Source of the DNA: Microcyclospora pomicola
Lineage: Eukaryota > Ascomycota > Dothideomycetes > Capnodiales
Assembly: GCA_002786065.1 (NCBI GenBank)
Contig: NHNY01000012.1
Span: 372,001 to 436,000 of the forward strand
Reading direction: 5' to 3'
Length of the DNA stretch: 64,000 nucleotides
The translations under genes and the position numbers were made by a program. Below, in pieces: positions 46,181 through 57,102 of the stretch (the stretch's first letter is position 1; each line of letters begins with the position of its first letter). The notes below the pieces were generated by a model. The model did not search any database and was not told the origin of the DNA. It was given only the letters and a program-made list of their open reading frames with translations.

Positions 46181-46338
46181 ATGGGTAAGTCTACCTCATC
46201 CCTTCCCGACCGCATCGACGTCTCGCTCTTCCATCACCTCCATCCTCTCGCACATCGCCTGCGCATCACAATCCACCCTCGTTTCGACTTCTGCAAGAGC
46301 TTTCACGCGACCGCGTGGCTGGAATGCTGTGGAATACC

Positions 46339-48047
46339 ATGTCGACCTCCCCCAAGACGCAGACTGCACACTCCAGCAGTATCTCGCACCACAGCAGACT
46401 TTCGCAATCCACCACCGCCACGACTGCCAGCAAGCTCTTCGCATCAAGCACGACCGATCCGACGACCACATTGAAGCGTCTCGATTCCGTCACTAACCCA
46501 AGACTCTCTTCAGCTACGGTCAACGGCTCCACGGCCACTGCCCCTCCTGCGCGCGCCTCGCCCATCCCCAGCCAAGCGAACGTCTCCAATGGCAAGCCCA
46601 CCTCTCCGCTGGTGGCCACCAGCAACGCCATGACCAGCGGCGGTACTCAGGGCCCACAAACCGTCTCCTCCAAAGACCCTAAGGCGGCCGCTCAGGCAGC
46701 GAGCGACATGAGGAACATTGTCCGCAGGAAGCTTACAGGATACGTTGGATTCGCAAACCTGCCCAACCAATGGCATCGCAAGAGCGTACGAAAAGGCTTC
46801 AACTTCAACGTTATGGTCGTTGGTGAGTCTGATTATCTGCGGCGATCTGCTGTTCATCTACGGTTGCTGACACTGTTGCAGGTGAATCTGGCCTTGGAAA
46901 GTCAACACTTGTGAACACCCTTTTCAACACCTCGCTTTATCCACCCAAGGAGCGCAAGCAACCATCCCTCGACTTCGCACCAAAGACCGTCAGCATCCAA
47001 TCTATCAGCGCCGACATTGAGGAGAACGGCGTCCGCCTACGATTGACGGTTGTTGACACTCCCGGCTTCGGTGACTTTGTCAACAACGATGACTCTTGGC
47101 GACCCATCGTCGAGAACATCGAGCAGCGTTTCGATGCATACTTGGACGCCGAGAACAAGGTTAATCGCATGAACATCGTCGACAACCGTGTGCACGCATG
47201 TGTCTACTTCGTGCAGCCCACCGGCCACTCGCTCAAGCCTCTCGATGTCGAGGTGATGCGCAGACTGCACACTAAGGTCAACCTCATTCCGGTCATTGCC
47301 AAGGCCGACACTCTGACCGATGAGGAGATCGCAGCCTTCAAGCAACGTGTACGTCTACCAAAATCAGTCCTTGCGTTGACGTGTATGCTAACACCACTCC
47401 CCTAGATCCTTGCCGACATCCATCACCACAACATCCACATCTTTGAGGGTCCTCGCTATGAGCTCGACGACGAGGAGACCATTGCTGAGAACAACGAGAT
47501 CATGTCTAAGGTGCCATTCGCTGTCGTTGGTGCCAACACTGAAGTCCAGACACCCGAAGGTCGCAAGGTCCGTGGACGCCGCTACCCATGGGGTGTCATT
47601 GAGGTCGACAACGAGGAGCACTGTGACTTCGTCAAGCTCCGACAAATGCTCATCCGAACCCACATGGAGGAGCTGAAGGAGCACACCAACAACTTCTTGT
47701 ACGAGAACTACCGCTCTGACAAGCTCACCGCTATGGGCGTTGCTCAAGACCCATCGGTGTTCAAGGAGGTCAACCCGGCCGTCAAGCAGGAGGAGGAGCG
47801 CTCACTCCACGAGCAGAAGCTTGCCAAGATGGAGCTCGAGATGAAGATGGTCTTCCAGCAGAAGGTACAAGAGAAGGAGTCGAAGCTGAAGCAGAGCGAG
47901 GAGGAGCTCTACGCCCGTCACCGGGAGATGAAGGAGCAGCTCGACCGACAGCGACAAGAGCTCGAGGAGAAGAAGTCTCGCATAGAGTCCGGCCGACCGA
48001 TCGAAGAGAAGGGCCGTAAGAAGGGTGGTTTCTCGCTGAGGGGTTAG
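46339..48047 (+). CDS. CDC3: septin, Cdc3/AspB class
   Basis: 530 aa from exons 46339..46822, 46882..47348 and 47406..48047, with introns of 59 and 57 nt. The first intron splits the glycine codon of the P-loop GESGLGKST (162-170). G3 DTPGFG (about 220) and G4 AKAD follow, as do the polybasic-region neighbour [16 protein letters not shown], the septin-unique element [18 protein letters not shown], and a C-terminal coiled coil (about 445-520, [17 protein letters not shown]). AspB/Cdc3 forms hetero-oligomeric filaments at septa and hyphal tips. An alternative start is a four-base mini-exon ATGG at 46181 spliced by GTAAGT to an in-frame acceptor at 46298, giving [15 protein letters not shown] before the ATG used here. 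Confidence 0.95.
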
Positions 48048-48660
48048 TTGCGAACATCACCGCCTTGTTCGTGTCTATGTCTGGCCGAGTTGGGGCTTTG
48101 TCGATGCTGCTGCTGTTGTCCACAGCCCGTCCACACACTCACACACACACACCATAATTCCAGATTGTCCTTGCTACTACTACTTCAAAACAGAAACACA
48201 AGAACGCCTAGGGAGATACCCCAATGATCACAACGGGGCGTTTTCAATTTGTCTGTTTGCGTGGCGTGGAGGGTTCTGTGGCGAGATTTTTTCTTGGCGG
48301 GGAAAAAGAAACACTACCTATATCCTCTTGTCTCTTTTTTTTTGTGTAATGTCATTAATCCTTTACTTGAAAGAAATCCCAACCAACGTCTTTTTGTGTT
48401 TGTCTCTCCTAACTTGGCTTGACGGCGTGTTCAGGCAGTGGAGGTGAGGTGGGGAGAAGAGTGTGAGTGTGGGTGTGGGTGTGGGTGTGTTTGTGCATAG
48501 GCAGTGCGATGTCTTCGCTCCTCGCGTGTACGATGTATGGCGCTGTTCGGGGCTAGAAGGAGAACGAAGATGAAAGTGAAGGAGAGAATGATGGGACGGG
48601 AAATGGAGGGAGAGGGAGATGTTCTCTTGCTACCACAGCGACCTTTTACTGTCTTTGGTC
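48048..48660. other. septin 3' region with short microsatellites
   Basis: No gene. It contains an AC microsatellite at about 48,131-48,153, a poly-T run near 48,335 and a TGGGTG-type repeat at about 48,462-48,496 (GTGTGGGTGTGGGTGTGG). Confidence 0.6.
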
Positions 48661-49095
48661 ATGTGTCTTCAGTTGTGCGCTTTAAGTTGTAGAGCTACTG
48701 TAGTTGTGTCTGTACTTGTGTTTACCTAAAGTTATATCCGTATCTGTGAATGGAACTTGTTGTGCTTATCAAGGGTGAGCTGTGATTGTAGGTGACTCGT
48801 GTTTGTAGTTGTGTCTGTACTCGTGTTTGTATCTGTGTTAGGTTCGTTCTTGTGTCTGAACATGGTTCAGTAGTCGTTGATCGATTTGTAGATTTGAATG
48901 GAACTGTGGACTGTGATTGTTGCTGTACTTGTGTCTGTAGGTAAGCATGTCTGTACTTGTACGTGGATCCGTGCATGGTAGTTGTATCTGTCCTTGGGCA
49001 TTTACCTGTAGATTGTACTTGATTGTGTATTCTTAGGTATGGATTGTATTCGATACTGTAGTTATGAACGGATCTGTGTCTGTAAATGTGTCTGC
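48660..49095. repeat. T/G-rich degenerate short tandem repeat tract
   Basis: About 430 bp of imperfect 6- to 16-bp units built from TGTACTTGTGTCTGTA, TGTATCTGTG and TGTAGTTGTGTCTG. It is strongly biased to T and G on the plus strand. On the minus strand the tract leaves a 125-codon open frame made of TQTR/VQTQ-like residues, which is best explained as repeat translation. Confidence 0.75.
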
Positions 49096-50082
49096 ACACT
49101 CCATTCTATCAATCTGTCCATCAGGGTAGTGGTCTGTCAGTCTTTTACGTTGTAGGTAAGGTATGTGTCAGTGCTCTGGCGCAGCGTGTACAGGTACCGC
49201 ACCCTCCTCAGGACCTTGATAGGCTGGAGCTGAGATTTGCCTTGATATGTCGAAAATCACTGTTACTGGAGGCTATGTCCCAAGATGGATTTCGGTTGAC
49301 CAAGAACGTGGCTCGCTCGCTGGAGAAGCAACGGAATGTGCTGAGTAGTTGGACTGGAGTCTAGGGTCTCCCTTTCATGCTGGCTACTCTGTTCAATTCA
49401 AGTAGCTGACTAACGCAAGGTCACAAGATCTCTTTCGGTAGCTCTACGTGATGATGTTTCGGTCAGCAAGCTCATTCCGCCTTGTAAGCACTGGGCAAAC
49501 AGAGCAGCCAGACATCACGAACAAGTTATCTTTGATCGAAACGTACTACGGCCTTCTTGCCCTTGCCGGCGACGGTCTGCATTCGATGCTTACACTTCAC
49601 GTTCTGCACTTTTGAGATATCCGAGTGTCATGTTAGTATCTCTGGAGTGTAGGCTCTGAATGGGACCGACGCGGAATGGGAGGAGTGTACAAGTGTCCTA
49701 TAACGAATGATGTAGACCTCTAACGTGGAATGGATTGCATTGCTCAAGGTACGCAGAGAATCATTTATGTGGTCTAGCACAACAAGAGTGGGATCTACAA
49801 TGGTTCATCTACATGAATATAATAGTTAAAATGCATGTGAGTAGGACCAGATGTAGGCTAAGATAGGGGCAAGACATTTTCTTGTTTACAAGATTGCAGC
49901 TGATTTGGACCGCTAGTTGCACATGTCTTTCTGTCAATCTGTAGGCGCGGGGCTGCTCTATTACACTATGTTTGTCTCCCTTCGTAGGGTCAGCAGTATA
50001 GAATGATGTAGCATAGAAACCCGTGATAGTAAAGTGCAATCCGAGCTCTTTACGTTGCTCGGCTGAGTCTCTGTAGCAATGC
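49096..50082. other. gene-poor region before the 295-bp array
   Basis: About 990 bp without a complete gene. Two points are notable. At 49526-49603 (minus) a 25-codon open stretch ending in a stop is preceded by TGCAG and a perfect TACTAAC at 49632-49638, as in a last exon. At 49833-49840 there is a lone GCATGTGA, possibly a decayed relative of the array units that follow. Confidence 0.45.
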
Positions 50083-53000
50083 GAAACTTCACTTAGAAAA
50101 TGTACCGTAGCTAGTGTATGTGGAGCTTGACCAATAGAATGCGTGGAAAGTGGAATTCTGGTGGTTGTGTTAGCATGTGAAAGTGGGCTAAAGCTGCTGG
50201 AACCGGGCTAGGCTGCTAGGACTGCTGTTTGCGATGGCGACGGCGACGACGAGACCATGCCAGCGCAGCGAAACAGCTATGTTCTGATAAAAGAGCTTGC
50301 GAAGTATGTCGAGCAAGACTAATAGTAAATTGGGCTCTGCTGAGTGGATACATGGCCGCATATGGAGAAGTCGAGCTGTGTCAGCAAGTGCCCCTTTTCT
50401 CGAGACTTCACTTTGAAATGCACCGCAGCTAGCGTGGTCATAGACTAACCAGTCGTCGCGTTGTATAGTGAGAATTCGATAGATACATTAGCATGTGAAA
50501 GTACAATCGAGCTGCGAAGATCAGTGTTTTGATCTAGGATAATAGAAACATGTTAGCAGATCCTCATTATCGTACGTTTAGCTATAAATTACTTTCCAAT
50601 GCAATGAAACAGATCGGGCGGATCTACGTAATTACATGGCTGCATGCCGAGAAGTCGAGCTGTTCCGCACAAGCCCGAGACTTCACTTCAGAATGTACCG
50701 CAGCTAGTGCGGTAGAATTTTCGACCAATTGAAGCTGTTAGTACACAACATCAAAAGCCCGCTTTAGCACGTGAAAGTGGGCTTGAGCCGCGAAGCACAG
50801 TGTTTTGGACAGGCACGAGAACAGCGCGTTAGCAGATCAAATTTTTCATAATCTTGTGTGTTTGAAAGGGATGTTCCGAGACCTTGCCACGAGACAGATC
50901 GAGCGGATTTGACACAGCACATAGGAGTTCAGCGAGCGCTCGCGCTAGACAGTGTCCTTGCTCGAGACTCCACTCCAAGATGCGCCGTAGTCAGCGTATA
51001 AGTGGTTTCGACCAATCGAGCCTGCTCCTAGACAGCATCAAAAGCCCGCTTCTGCACGTGAAAGTCGGATACAGCTGATCAGCAAGTCTAGCAACGACAG
51101 TAAACATGCGAGCAGATTAAGAGAGTGCAACTGTCGCTTTTCCTATGCTCTTATAACAGAATCGCAGTGCAATGCCACAAACAAAAGCGCAATCAGCAGA
51201 GCACGTGGCATCTCATCGAAAGCTCGAGTTGTCCCGGATCAACCCCTTAGCTGAGACTTCACTTGAATGTGCACCGCAGCTAGTGCGTAAGAGTTTTCGA
51301 CCAATAGAAGTCGTGTATCAGAAACTTGAATACGGTCTTCAGCATGTGAGAATGAGATGAGCTACTTAGCGATTCCAATCTTCACAGTGAGAATAGAGGC
51401 ATATCATCGGAGTTTTGATTTGCTTTCTGGTTCCTTTATAGCAGGTGTGTACTATGGTGATACCACGGTTTGGCTGTTGCTGCAGCAGCATGTGATAGCC
51501 ATACCGAGTGCTCGGGCTGCACGGTCTCGAGCCGCTCCCTTTTTGAGACCTCACTTCGCGATGAACTTCAGCTAGCGCGTGAGCGAGTTCAGCCAATCGA
51601 CGCGTTGTCAGCGGGACACCTAAGAAGCAGGTCAGCATGTGAAGATCGAAGTAGCACTTTGACGCGACCTGCCCTGACGAACATGCATAAGTGATCGTAG
51701 ACACATGTCCCAAACTTCGAGTCTCTGTAGAGGACGAACGAACACACTTACGTAGTAGAGCTGTGACAGGATGTATATGACCTCCACGCTCAGTCAATAG
51801 GGGATGAGGGTTCGGCTTGTGTTCGGAATGCTTATCGAGACCTCACTTCGAGATGCTCCGCAGCTAGCGCAGTGGAATCCTGACCAATCGACTCGCTGTT
51901 AGCGGGACATCTAAGAGCTTGCTTAGCATGTAAAGATTCAAGTAGCACTCTTACGCGACCTACCTTGGTCGACAGGAACACGAAGTTGTAGACCATATGT
52001 TCGGAAAATCGTGTGATTGCAGAAGGCGAACGAAGACAATCATGCGGCAGAGCTGTGACAGAGGATGTATATGACCTCTATGTTCCATCCTCGTGGAATG
52101 AGGGCTCGGCTTGTTCTCGGGATGCTTATCGACACCTTACTTCAAGATGTTCCACAGCTAGCGTCGTAGGACTCTGACCAATCGCTGCTGTGCTGGGGGA
52201 ACGTTGACAGCTAAGTTGACATGTGAACGATCGAGTCAATTGCTTGTGAGACCTGCCTCGACCTGTCTCCTGAGCCTTGGATGATTGAGATTAGCACAAT
52301 GGCGATTTGACGGATCTCGAGCTCTCCAGGGTGGAATGCGAGCGTGAATAGATCATCGAAGATACATGTGGTCTGCATTGTTCGTCATTGTATGGCTAGG
52401 GTTTGTTCTGTCCCCGGACGCTTGTTCCCGAGACTTCACTTCGAGTCGTACCGCAGCTAGCGCTTGAGCAATTCGACCAATGACCTTTTCGTGTTGCGAA
52501 AATCTGTTGTGATCCATTAGCATGTGAAGGCCAAGTGGACACGAGCTGGAGCTCCACTCACATCAACAGCCAAGATCGGTCGACTGAGAATGTACATCTC
52601 CTACGCTTTGACAAGGACGTCATGTGAAACAGATTTGACAGAGCTGCAATGTAGTTCTAAGCATATGTCGTGCGCTCGGCATCGATTCGTACCTTCAGGG
52701 GCTCGAGCCGTCTCGGAAGCCTGAGCTTCCCGAAACTTCACTTCATTCTGTACCGCGGCTAGCGTCAACTCGAATCGACCAATGACTATCTTGTGTCGTG
52801 AAAATTGCATGTCATCACTCCGCATGTGAAAGCTGAACGGGTCGCAGGTGCAATTGCCTGCTTGACAGAAAGTGATTTGAATGATTATGAGCGCATCGGC
52901 CGTACATTCCTTCACAAGGTTCACGAACCGGAACATGTAGAGAGAAGCTGCGGAATCACTTCTCCTTGTCGCCCACTTCTGCCTCATCCTGGCTTGAGCG

Positions 53001-53140
53001 CTCGCGGAAGCTTACCGCCACTTTGTTGAGACTTCACTTCGAAATGCACCGCAGCTAGCTCACGACGAATTCGACCAATAACGACGTTGCTTGATGAAAA
53101 ATCTCCGTGCACGAACGGCACGTGAAAATACGATGTGCGT
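50083..53140. repeat. tandem array of eleven diverged ~295-bp non-coding units with three fixed-spacing boxes
   Basis: Units begin at 50083, 50402, 50677, 50964, 51253, 51545, 51837, 52131, 52430, 52732 and 53028 (period 275-319, mean 294.5). Box A is GAGACTTCACTTC followed after about 8 bp by ACCGCAGCTAGCG. Box B is GACCAAT, with CCAAT at 50131, 50449 (CCAGT), 50725, 51012, 51301, 51593, 51884, 52178, 52477, 52779 and 53075. Box C is GCAYGTGA at 50173, 50491, 50767, 51054, 51342, 51635, 51926 (GCATGTAA), 52219 (ACATGTGA), 52520, 52822 and 53118. A-to-B distance is 47-48 and B-to-C 41-43 in every unit although intervening bases differ. All units have the same orientation. Stops occur in every frame of the conserved part, so it is not coding. 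Spacers are weakly alike; units 6-8 share GAGCTGTGACAG and TGTATATGACCTC. Confidence 0.93.
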
Positions 53141-53355
53141 GGTCGAAAGCTGTGCATGGAGCAAAGCCATCAGGCGCAGGAACAGTTGCATGGCGTACAT
53201 TGTACTGTAGGTTACAATGATGGTTATCAGGTACTTTCTGCCCTGGCAGATCACGGTCGTGCTGATGCGTGGTCGAAGCGTTGGTCGGCATCCACGAGAG
53301 TCCAACCACTCTCCACTCCACACCCTCCCTTCCACGCACTGGACTTCGATTGACC

Positions 53356-54084
53356 CTACCCAACCATTCTTCTTACTTTCTCCAGCAATACCTGGCTTTC
53401 CCTGCCTAACTTCCTCTGCCCATTCGGCCCTCCTGTACGTGCTTTCGCCATCGCCTTGCGAAATCGCTCACGATCCTCACGCTTTTGCGTCCGCTCGCGA
53501 TCTGCTTGTTCATGTGCGCGTTGTCTCTCCTCGGCCGCTGCACGTTTCTGAAGAGCTTCTTCGTGCTCTCTGCGAAATGGAAGATTCTTGGGCCTGCGCT
53601 GGCGTCGGTTGCCACGAGACTCTGCTGGCGGTGGCGATGGGAGTGGTTGAGGCTCATTATCCATGAGATCCTGTCGATCAGGATGAGGCGTTGTCGTCGG
53701 CTCCGGGGCACTGCGCGTGGTATTTGTTTTGGTATCATCGCCTTCAGGACCCACGTTGAAGGCTTCACGATCTAACACTATAGAGGCGGGTTCGGGGATC
53801 TTGTCGCGCGAGTCGTCGGGTCCTTGATCCGGATTCTGTTTCTTTAGCCTGGCATAATTCTTCTTTATTTGCGCTTTATGTATGAGGCTCTCCTTGATCT
53901 TCTGAGCTATGAGAAGCAGTGTCAGCGTGAGCAGTGACTATGGCTAAGGTGGCGGTAATGAAGTACTCTTGCGCTTGTACAACCCGTCCGGAAGGTTCGC
54001 TGGGCCTACGGTGAAACCTCTCTTCGACTTCTTACGAGCATCTGCGCCAGATTCATCGTTTGATCTTTTGCGTTTCTCTGACAT
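53356..54084 (-). CDS. FYV7: rRNA-processing protein Fyv7
   Basis: 222 aa from exons 54084..53967 and 53906..53356; the 60-nt intron has donor GTACTT, branch CTGAC and acceptor CATAG. The splice joins the family signature: KKSKRGFTVGPANLPDGLYK and RKTQKIKESLIHKAQIKKNY. After a disordered middle, the C-terminal half is a long charged helix (REHEEALQKRAAAEERQRA) ending GRESQVLLEKVRRMVG. Fyv7 acts in the nucleolus at early 18S pre-rRNA cleavages in the small-subunit processome, the same pathway as Bms1 elsewhere in this window. It lies about 215 bp from the last unit of the 295-bp array, stop codon facing it. Confidence 0.92.
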
Positions 54085-54756: not shown

Positions 54757-57102
54757 ATGGCGATCTACAATGACGACCCAAACTGGCAGTACCCTTGGGC
54801 CAGCTCCCAAACCCAAGCTCCTCCTAGAAATGACGAGGAGAAAGCGGATGCCCCAGTGGCAGATGGACAAGTGAGTCCAACGACGATGTTTAATCGATAT
54901 TTCACAGGAAGGCCACGTACACCCCCAACTGGCAACAGGAGCCCGCATATCAACCGCCAGGAACTCATCCGACGGATTAAGAGCAGGGAAAGCAGACCAT
55001 GCTCGCCTGAGTTGGAGAGACAAGAGCGTCGAATAGAGAGATCAAAAGAGTTGATGGAGTCGTCACGAGCGCCGTTCAATCTACGCCCACAATCTCCCGA
55101 CACCGCAAGTGAGCAGTACTCAGCTGGAATACAGATTGAACGGCCTCGGTCCGCTCTCCATCGAGGTGACTTCAGAGAAAGAGGGCCCGCTCCTCATACA
55201 CCACGTTCTGGTAATACTGTAGAGGATGACGGCCTCTCCGCTATCGCAACTTCGCCTGTTGTGCCTTGGCATCCGGAATTTCCAGTGGCCGTTCCGCGCC
55301 AGGTACGACTTGACAGGCAGCAGACGCATGACAACTTGTTCCAACCCATCTCACCATCTCAGCAGCCAGGACGGCCTCGTGCTGCGTCACAAGCTCTTCT
55401 TTCAACAAGCTTTGTGTATAAAGCCCCTACCAGTCCACTTGTGCAGTCGTCAAGACCCGACACACCTGAGCCCGGGAGGCAGAGATCGCGCAGCCCAGAC
55501 AGGTCGCGCAGACACACCTTCTCGCCTCCATCTTTAGCCCGCTTCCACTCTGCACTGGACTATCCAGCCTCGGCTCGTCAGACCAAACCTCTGCCAACGC
55601 TTCGATCTGAACGTACCTTCCCATACCAAGCTCATCAACCGCGTCGGTCTATACACTCTATTGAGGGCCTGTCGCAGCTACCATCAGCACATGGCAGGCG
55701 ACCGTCATTTCCCGACTCGCCACTCCATCATGCACCCATGGTCGGGTCGTATGAAGAGTCGATTCTGCGTGGTCGCATGTCCACCACGCCTTCGAGACCA
55801 TTGAACTTCGTAGCACAAATCGGAGTACTTGGTCGTGGCGAGTGTAAGCCAAGTCTCAAATGTCCTCCGCATGCTGTGGTGCCGTTTCCAGCTGTGTTCT
55901 ACAGTTACTCCGGCACAAAGTCTACGCCCACTGATCAGCCCAGCCCATATGTGGGTCTTGTTGACCTCGAGAACAATCTGCCAAATACAGAAAGTGCAAG
56001 TGATAGGCGAAGGCAAAGAGTACAGGCTGCACTAGGCGATGAAGGTAGCCGCGCAAGCTCGCGTAACCGCGAGGACTTGTCAGCGTCTGATGTGCATACA
56101 CAGCGTAGACGAAAGCACAAGCAGAAGCGGCGCTCGGTCTCACCGAAAGCACCTCCTGGTGGTAGCTATCGCATTCCGAAGCAGGGACAGATTCAGATTA
56201 TCATCAAGAATCCGAACAAGACCGCCGTAAAGCTGTTCTTGATTCCGTACGATCTGTCAGACATGCAGCCGGGTCAGAAAACTTTCATCCGCCAGCGCAG
56301 CTATTCTGCCGGTCCCATCATTGATATGCCACTGTCCTCTCGTAAGAACTTGGGCACCGATCGTCCCGAGGCAGCGCTCAACGCCAGCGATGATCCTAAT
56401 GACAGACCTATGCTACGATATCTGATTCACCTGCATATCTGCTGTCCTTCAAAAGAGCGCTATTTCTTGTACAAATCCGTGCGTGTTGTTTTCGCGAACC
56501 GCGTGCCGGATGGCAAGGAAAAGCTCCGCAACGAAGTGCAGCTACCGGATCCGAAATATACCTCATACAAAGTGGCGCGAGACATGAGCAACACGATCAC
56601 ACCGTCGCGAGCGCCTTCGCGCCCAGGAAGCAATGTAGAAGGTTTTGCTCACCCTTCTGTCAATACCGCCTGGTCAACAAGCCGGCGTAAGCTCGCACAA
56701 TCCTTACCCTCTAGCGAGTTCATCGAGCACTTCGCAAATATGCCTCCCGAGCCACTTCCTCACCACCTATATCAGAACACGATTTTGCATCGTCAGCGTT
56801 CGAGCCAGCAGATCAGCGACAACATGGACATGGATTCCGACGAGCATTCTCAGGAGACCGAATCTCATCGGTCCGCCTTTTCCTCTCCTAGCAACACTGC
56901 CAACGGGCGAGTATTCGGAGAACCGTTCTCGCCCCTGGGCTTGAGAAGTTTAGAAGATCCGTTCAACTTCGAACGAGATCGAAGCAGGGAGCGGCAAGGA
57001 ACAGAAAGGAGCGAGTCTCTGCTTTCTCGACGCTTGAAGGATCTTTCGCTACCACTACAGTCCCCGCCGTCCGCTGCGAAAGAGCGATTTGGGGAGTGTT
57101 GA
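54757..57102 (+). CDS. Atos-family protein (DUF4210 / chromosome-segregation domain)
   Basis: Intronless, 781 aa. Most of the protein is disordered and rich in Ser, Pro and Arg. The two conserved modules of the Atos/FAM214 family are present. The first, at about 345-390, reads YEESILRGRMSTTPSRPLNF and VAQIGVLGRGECKPSLKCP. The second, at about 465-590, reads YRIPKQGQIQIIIKNPNKTA, VKLFLIPYDLSDMQPGQKTF and LRYLIHLHICCPSKERYFLY. Animal Atos proteins are transcriptional regulators; fungal members are named for a proposed role in meiotic chromosome segregation. Nuclear location is likely from basic clusters such as RRRKHKQKRR. The long disordered N-terminus is usual for fungal members. Confidence 0.9.
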   Translation: MAIYNDDPNWQYPWASSQTQAPPRNDEEKADAPVADGQVSPTTMFNRYFTGRPRTPPTGNRSPHINRQELIRRIKSRESRPCSPELERQERRIERSKELMESSRAPFNLRPQSPDTASEQYSAGIQIERPRSALHRGDFRERGPAPHTPRSGNTVEDDGLSAIATSPVVPWHPEFPVAVPRQVRLDRQQTHDNLFQPISPSQQPGRPRAASQALLSTSFVYKAPTSPLVQSSRPDTPEPGRQRSRSPDRSRRHTFSPPSLARFHSALDYPASARQTKPLPTLRSERTFPYQAHQPRRSIHSIEGLSQLPSAHGRRPSFPDSPLHHAPMVGSYEESILRGRMSTTPSRPLNFVAQIGVLGRGECKPSLKCPPHAVVPFPAVFYSYSGTKSTPTDQPSPYVGLVDLENNLPNTESASDRRRQRVQAALGDEGSRASSRNREDLSASDVHTQRRRKHKQKRRSVSPKAPPGGSYRIPKQGQIQIIIKNPNKTAVKLFLIPYDLSDMQPGQKTFIRQRSYSAGPIIDMPLSSRKNLGTDRPEAALNASDDPNDRPMLRYLIHLHICCPSKERYFLYKSVRVVFANRVPDGKEKLRNEVQLPDPKYTSYKVARDMSNTITPSRAPSRPGSNVEGFAHPSVNTAWSTSRRKLAQSLPSSEFIEHFANMPPEPLPHHLYQNTILHRQRSSQQISDNMDMDSDEHSQETESHRSAFSSPSNTANGRVFGEPFSPLGLRSLEDPFNFERDRSRERQGTERSESLLSRRLKDLSLPLQSPPSAAKERFGEC

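Follow-up and report, generated by a model that had tools for sequence, protein, structure and literature searches.

The DNA analysed here (the window, 64,000 nucleotides) corresponds to positions 372001-436000 of contig C4 in the 23.37-Mb, 58-contig assembly of Microcyclospora pomicola. It contains a 5.3-kb gap between two genes arranged tail to tail. On the left is a septin gene on the forward strand (46315..48047, several ORFs, stop at 48047), whose start is putative and derived from the ORFs. The first-pass annotation had named it CDC3, and its septin identity was borne out by PF00735 matches on 46911-47402 and 47502-48044. On the right, the gene previously called FYV7 lies on the reverse strand (53356..54084, placed from ORFs, stop at 53356, start codon set by eye); this name is retained as probable only, with PF08524 scoring 12.3 bits, under the Pfam cut-off of 23. 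No gene was recognised between the two, either in the ORF list or in a Pfam scan of four gap ORFs. Further right lies a 781-aa protein (54757-57099). Its named relatives include one in Meristemomyces frigidus, at 60% identity, and a partial record from Baudoinia panamericana, 69% identical across 64% of the query; both fungi are Teratosphaeriaceae, Mycosphaerellales. Its two top matches (70-72%) were labelled Quercus suber, which we read as fungal contamination.

Within the gap, an array of 11 units, all on the forward strand, extends over 50083-53316 with a mean period of 294.5 bp ((53028-50083)/10). Copy number, direction and period agreed with the first-pass annotation and were confirmed by both the unit starts and a profile search. 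Unit starts were placed by hand from the sequence; a fuzzy scan alone gave 5 of the 11, and the array was absent from the list produced by Tandem Repeats Finder. Every unit begins with a long box (box A), followed by a CCAAT box and a CAYGTGA-type E-box. Unit 1 (50083..50401, 319 bp) has box A at 50083-50116, CCAAT at 50131 and CATGTGA at 50174; in unit 2 (50402..50676, 275 bp), box A at 50402-50434 is followed by a degenerate CCAGT at 50449 and CATGTGA at 50492. Unit 3 (50677..50963, 287 bp) carries box A at 50677-50709, CCAAT at 50725 and CACGTGA at 50768, and unit 4 (50964..51252, 289 bp) carries box A at 50964-50996, in which CAGCG replaces TAGYG, CCAAT at 51012 and CACGTGA at 51055. The corresponding positions are 51253-51285, 51301 and 51343 (CATGTGA) in unit 5 (51253..51544, 292 bp), and 51545-51577, 51593 and 51636 (CATGTGA) in unit 6 (51545..51836, 292 bp). 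Unit 7 (51837..52130, 294 bp) has box A at 51837-51869, CCAAT at 51884 and a degenerate CATGTAA at 51927. CATGTGA recurs in unit 8 (52131..52429, 299 bp; box A 52131-52163, CCAAT 52178, E-box 52220), unit 9 (52430..52731, 302 bp; box A 52430-52462, CCAAT 52477, E-box 52521) and unit 10 (52732..53027, 296 bp; box A 52732-52764, CCAAT 52779, E-box 52823). The last, unit 11 (53028..53316), has box A at 53028-53060, CCAAT at 53075 and CACGTGA at 53119, and its tail ends at ~53316, ~40 bp short of the probable FYV7 stop.

The boxes were kept whilst the remainder of each unit drifted. A GAGACTTCACTT-like word was present, with substitutions, in 11/11 units, so the earlier description of boxes retained in each unit held for box A. 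It did not hold for the CCAAT box, intact in 10/11 units (the exception being unit 2), or for the full GCAYGTGA, found in 9/11 (unit 8 starts with A). The shorter CAYGTGA occurred in 10/11 units (all except unit 7), and the E-box read GCAYGTGAAA in 6/11. Between-unit identity averaged 0.88 in GAGACTTCACTT, 0.79 in TGNACCGCAGCTAGCG, 0.90 in GACCAAT and 0.81 in the E-box. The core sequence between these boxes averaged 0.38-0.39 and the spacer segments 0.33-0.37, in keeping with the heavy drift reported at first pass. Mean information per column likewise reached 1.2-1.6 bits in the boxes versus 0.34 in the spacer. Upstream of box A, the alignment also contained a weakly kept CAYRTG-like word near -65 and a cGAGngcTCG near -45.

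Spacing within the core was tightly held. The distance from box A to CCAAT was 47-48 bp (sd 0.5), from TAGYG to CCAAT 19-20 bp and from CCAAT to the E-box 42-44 bp (sd 0.7), whereas the distance from the E-box to the next box A had an sd of 7.9 without unit 1 and 11.2 with it. Spacer lengths in units 2-10 were 185, 196, 198, 202, 201, 204, 210, 211 and 205, with unit 1 an outlier at 228. When the spacer variation of units 2-10 was scaled down as a random walk, a rough yardstick, sds of 2.0 and 3.4 were predicted for the two core distances, versus 0.5 and 0.7 observed.

To determine how widely the array occurs, profiles, patterns and DNA queries were compared with the surrounding contig and the genome. 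A core profile recovered the 11 units in the window at 70.1-84.6 bits, and the next best match scored 4.4; the units score highly by construction because the profile was trained on them, and the test is the gap to the next match. Applied to 259 kb of contig C4, the core profile returned the same 11 units, with no other match above 5.5 bits, and a full-unit profile found them in the window with nothing comparable. As a DNA query against the whole genome, the array matched itself only. The 34-bp box, allowing up to 3 mismatches, matched 8/11 units and one place on C12 (control, 5 matches), and a pattern for the A1 part of the box matched 8 units plus a single site on C2 (control, 4). The A2 pattern matched 10 units and 56 other places at up to 2 mismatches, which is noise given 97 control matches, and 7 units and 2 other places at up to 1 mismatch. 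The first-pass annotation had held that scatter through the genome would speak for a transposon or satellite. Both DNA and pattern searches placed the array and its 34-bp box at one locus, with single, control-level matches elsewhere, and the array is not a satellite or transposon with many genomic copies. Neither genome_contigs nor viral_contigs contained an exact match to the box pattern, which says little as these are prokaryote and virus collections.

The units were originally described as non-coding, and this was upheld. Gap ORFs of at least 100 aa were few and none was common to the units, so coding repeats were rejected. Among the four gap ORFs scanned with Pfam, three had no match and one (53058-53363) reached 16.7 bits with S27e, short of the 24.5 required. 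ARAGORN detected no tRNA in the array. Rfam gave no match at its cut-off, its one sub-threshold match (26.4 of a required 100 bits) covering only the tail of unit 11 and the end of FYV7. RNAalifold consensus folds contained only three weak pairs on the forward strand and 14 weak pairs on the reverse strand, one of them with a change on both sides, and fold z-scores for units and cores averaged +0.3 to +0.4, giving no fold signal. Pol III A and B boxes, sought by eye, were also rejected, since the TTCGA before CCAAT was not kept. With no coding, tRNA, Rfam (at cut-off) or RNA-fold signal, the constraint looks like protein binding to DNA.

Related box combinations were then sought elsewhere in the genome. 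GCTAG-CCAAT-CAYGTGA at array spacing occurred in 8 array units and on contigs C2 and C28 (control, 0). The wider pattern TCACATG-N32-46-ATTGG-N8-28-CRCTA gave 10 matches, namely six array units and one each on C2, C28, C11 and C8 (reversed control, 0; chance expectation by hand, ~1.7 genome matches), the C8 match having clearly different spacing. TTCACTT-CCAAT-CAYGTGA, which includes the first half of box A (GAGACTTCACTT), was found in six array units only and was absent from the dispersed modules. CCAAT plus E-box alone matched 5 units as well as 8 sites elsewhere (control, 0), and a looser search matched 5 units and 21 others (control, 3). Array spacing was present in 6 of these 21 off-array pairs, three of which are the C2, C28 and C11 family. 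The other three were discarded: L036 and L037 lie in open frames (105 and 383 aa) and L038 had no further likeness.

In C2, C28 and C11, TAGYG to CCAAT measured 20, 20 and 20 bp (array, 19-20) and CCAAT to CATGTGA 42, 42 and 43 bp (array, 42-44). The chance that both intervals agree was estimated by hand at ~0.02. Box order and orientation were the same as in the array, from which the search patterns had been derived. All three read CATGTGAAAG, whose AAAG includes the last A of CATGTGA, and CAYGTGAAAG occurred in 5/11 array units. Two of the modules lie upstream of genes and point in the gene direction: the C2 module is 292 bp upstream of the MED22 start codon (PF06179 matches two exons of this gene), and the C28 module is 216 or 300 bp upstream of two in-frame start codons of SEC10 (PF07393). 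C2 and C28 were 77% identical over 187 bp (L031 4918-5104 on the MED22 side, L032 4954-5140 on the SEC10 side). These two upstream regions share TAGYG words, CCAAT and two CATGTGA words, which is unusual for unrelated genes. The C11 module (L035 995-1215, C11:407.6 kb) is upstream of a stretch that by eye resembles a degraded MFS transporter; a Pfam scan of one frame of this stretch gave no match.

Kinship between the array and the dispersed modules, by descent or by common factors, appears likely from these sequence comparisons. However, C2, C28 and C11 align together, share a block of their own and, being mutually homologous, count as about one independent event. The array profile scored 14.5 bits at C28 and 11.3 at C2, where the match ran through the second CATGTGA and not the array-spaced one, and did not detect C11; 12 Mb of Markov random sequence reached 12.0 bits. 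The reverse profile, built from C2, C28 and C11, gave no array unit more than 0.6 bits (the value for unit 6) and failed to list the array in the 259 kb that contains it. Given these near-chance profile scores and the failure of the reverse profile, the kinship is graded only suggestive.

We propose, with a probability of about 0.55, that a single composite regulatory module of promoter type was amplified in tandem long ago to give the array, which would form a multi-protein DNA binding cluster. The module would comprise ~100 bp in which the CCAAT box and an E-box resembling CAYGTGAAA stand at fixed distances from the rigid 33-34-bp box GAGACTTCACTTCNANATGNACCGCAGCTAGYG, and each module would be followed by a drifting spacer of ~200 bp. 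The CCAAT box suggests the CCAAT-binding complex, and NF-YA (PF02045) is encoded in the genome. The E-box looks like a UAS-INO-type element and is a candidate bHLH site. Candidate binders of each module would thus be the CCAAT-binding complex, an Ino2-type bHLH factor and a further factor on the 34-bp box, for which we know of no binder. Proteins would assemble on each module and the 11 modules would act as one strong binding cluster. The cores may be nucleosome-free, with the ~195-200-bp spacer leaving room for one nucleosome per unit. Of the three guesses made at first pass, a protein-binding platform is the best fit to the rigid spacing and the CCAAT- and bHLH-like boxes, with binding itself predicted and the dispersed link suggestive.

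Comparable arrangements exist in part. In homotypic transcription-factor site clusters and multi-copy promoter-enhancer modules, sites are kept whilst the filler drifts. The array resembles these in repeating putative binding modules close together (11 copies), and kept sites with drifting filler were observed within it. It differs in its multi-part module, 1-2-bp spacing control, number of copies and 295-bp period, and in its position in a tail-to-tail gap where no gene was recognised downstream in the direction of the modules. The UAS-INO/ICRE element, CATGTGAAAT, is described as bound by Ino2/Ino4 (PMC3852131), and an Ino2 homodimer is described as binding a UAS-INO-type site in Aspergillus niger (PMC6962311). 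Compared with the element in these accounts, the array has a similar E-box (GCAYGTGAAA), but places it inside a fixed composite. Two further reports describe a CACGTG motif near -70 of Aspergillus nidulans start sites (PMC4046813) and in Fusarium promoters (PMC2853525). These are single sites upstream of genes, whereas the E-boxes of the array stand in tandem with no recognised gene. A literature search of titles and abstract openings found no description of a fungal array of this type, and a search for CGCTAGCG with fungi returned an unrelated match only. The module type is probably ordinary; its tandem amplification in a gene-less setting with tight spacing control is unusual. Fungal promoters are usually viewed as loose collections of short sites, and 11 copies in one genome provide a natural replicate experiment on which positions and spacings are kept, closely defining a multi-part module that includes a 34-bp box with no named binder. 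Why the genome keeps 11 promoter-type modules with no visible gene becomes a directly testable question.

As to output, the amplified module might initiate rightward non-coding RNA that would approach the 3' end of FYV7 in antisense orientation. This is our leading but tentative guess; the direction is favoured as the array modules point right, just as the dispersed modules point at SEC10 and MED22. A more general proposal, which we consider rather less probable than antisense initiation, is that a gene-less cluster of promoter modules was selected for its binding capacity, which would make it a fungal locus of a new kind. Such a cluster could act in trans as a sink or store for factors that would drive a few single-copy modules (those at SEC10 and MED22), or in cis by sending non-coding transcripts into FYV7. 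Titration of factors is the bolder alternative to antisense transcription.

Among competing explanations, the one that survives best, though still unlikely, is that a single long non-coding RNA has the array as its repeat domain, with the boxes recognised in the RNA. The central 3.5 kb of NORAD is described as 12 diverged ~300-nt units that keep short protein-binding motifs (PMC4947167). Its size, copy number and style of decay match the array's diverged tandem units with their short kept motifs, and the lack of a recognised gene in the gap also speaks for this reading. However, NORAD as described there functions as an RNA and carries stem-loops and Pumilio sites, whereas a search for RNA structure in the array found hardly any consensus on either strand and positive mean fold z-scores. 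Spacing control of 1-2 bp across poorly kept sequence would also fit DNA better. In addition, the boxes consist of promoter-type words that also occur upstream of genes, the kinship being only suggestive.

A slightly less probable explanation is a chromosome-structure element, i.e. a boundary, a cohesin or replication site, or part of a centromere, formed by clustered sites between convergent genes. The tail-to-tail position, the single locus and the clustered sites of fixed geometry are consistent with this, and an E-box and a large box ~90 bp apart faintly recall CDEI and CDEIII. Point centromeres combine CDEI and CDEIII with an AT-rich middle element and occur once per chromosome. The array, in contrast, has a GC content of 0.495 and does not stand out from the rest of the window in its repeat-mutation indices, and its presence at one locus in 58 contigs shows that it is not a sequence common to centromeres. 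In a scan for words repeated at equal lag (40-1240 bp, 259 kb of C4), the array ranked first, with 76 pairs at lag 280-310. Of the next four signals, two were short near-exact minisatellites, another was the GT-rich stretch to the left of the array and the last a repeat-rich contig end; the minisatellites and the GT-rich stretch did not represent a second such array.

More doubtful still is a neutral, dying satellite in which chance or local gene conversion makes the boxes look kept. Neighbouring units do still share spacer sequence (z of at least 3 against shuffles in 8/10 adjacent and 10/45 other pairs), and the spacers change in length fairly gradually from unit 2 to unit 9, a pattern that stepwise duplication of neighbours could leave. 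Units 6 and 7, the most alike in the array, show only a mild box preference (boxes 37/43, remainder 180/246). Across six adjacent pairs, however, 34-40 of 43 box positions were identical versus 62-73% outside the boxes, and in the five pairs other than 6-7 the remainder was 62-70% with boxes at 34-40/43. The case for selection rests on these more diverged pairs, not on pair 6-7. Core identity was 0.67-0.90 in 55/55 unit pairs, even where spacers aligned no better than shuffled sequence, and conversion tracts ending at the box edges in so many units seem implausible. From these 11 units of one genome we infer purifying selection on the boxes. The old satellite considered at first pass is thus hard to reconcile, in its neutral form, with boxes kept over spacers at ~0.35 identity. 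RIP was set aside as the cause of spacer drift on the strength of the repeat-mutation indices.

The remaining first-pass guess, tandem small non-coding RNA genes with one per unit, is very improbable: regular units with promoter-type words would suit it, but there was no tRNA, the sole Rfam match fell far short over the unit 11 tail and FYV7 end, and neither a fold signal nor a conserved body offered a candidate RNA.

Some minor features were observed around the array. A lone GCATGTGAGTAGGA at window position 49833 lies 341 bp left of the first E-box and is perhaps a decayed twelfth unit, although the profiles detect no unit around it. Further left in the interval between the septin gene and the array, window positions 48640-49130 carry a degraded, strongly strand-asymmetric GT-rich repeat of ~12 bp (TGTGTCTGTACT-like). 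At the right contig end (C4:527659-530366), repeats at a lag of ~119 bp contain a doubled GTGATTGGCA with ACATGTG words nearby.
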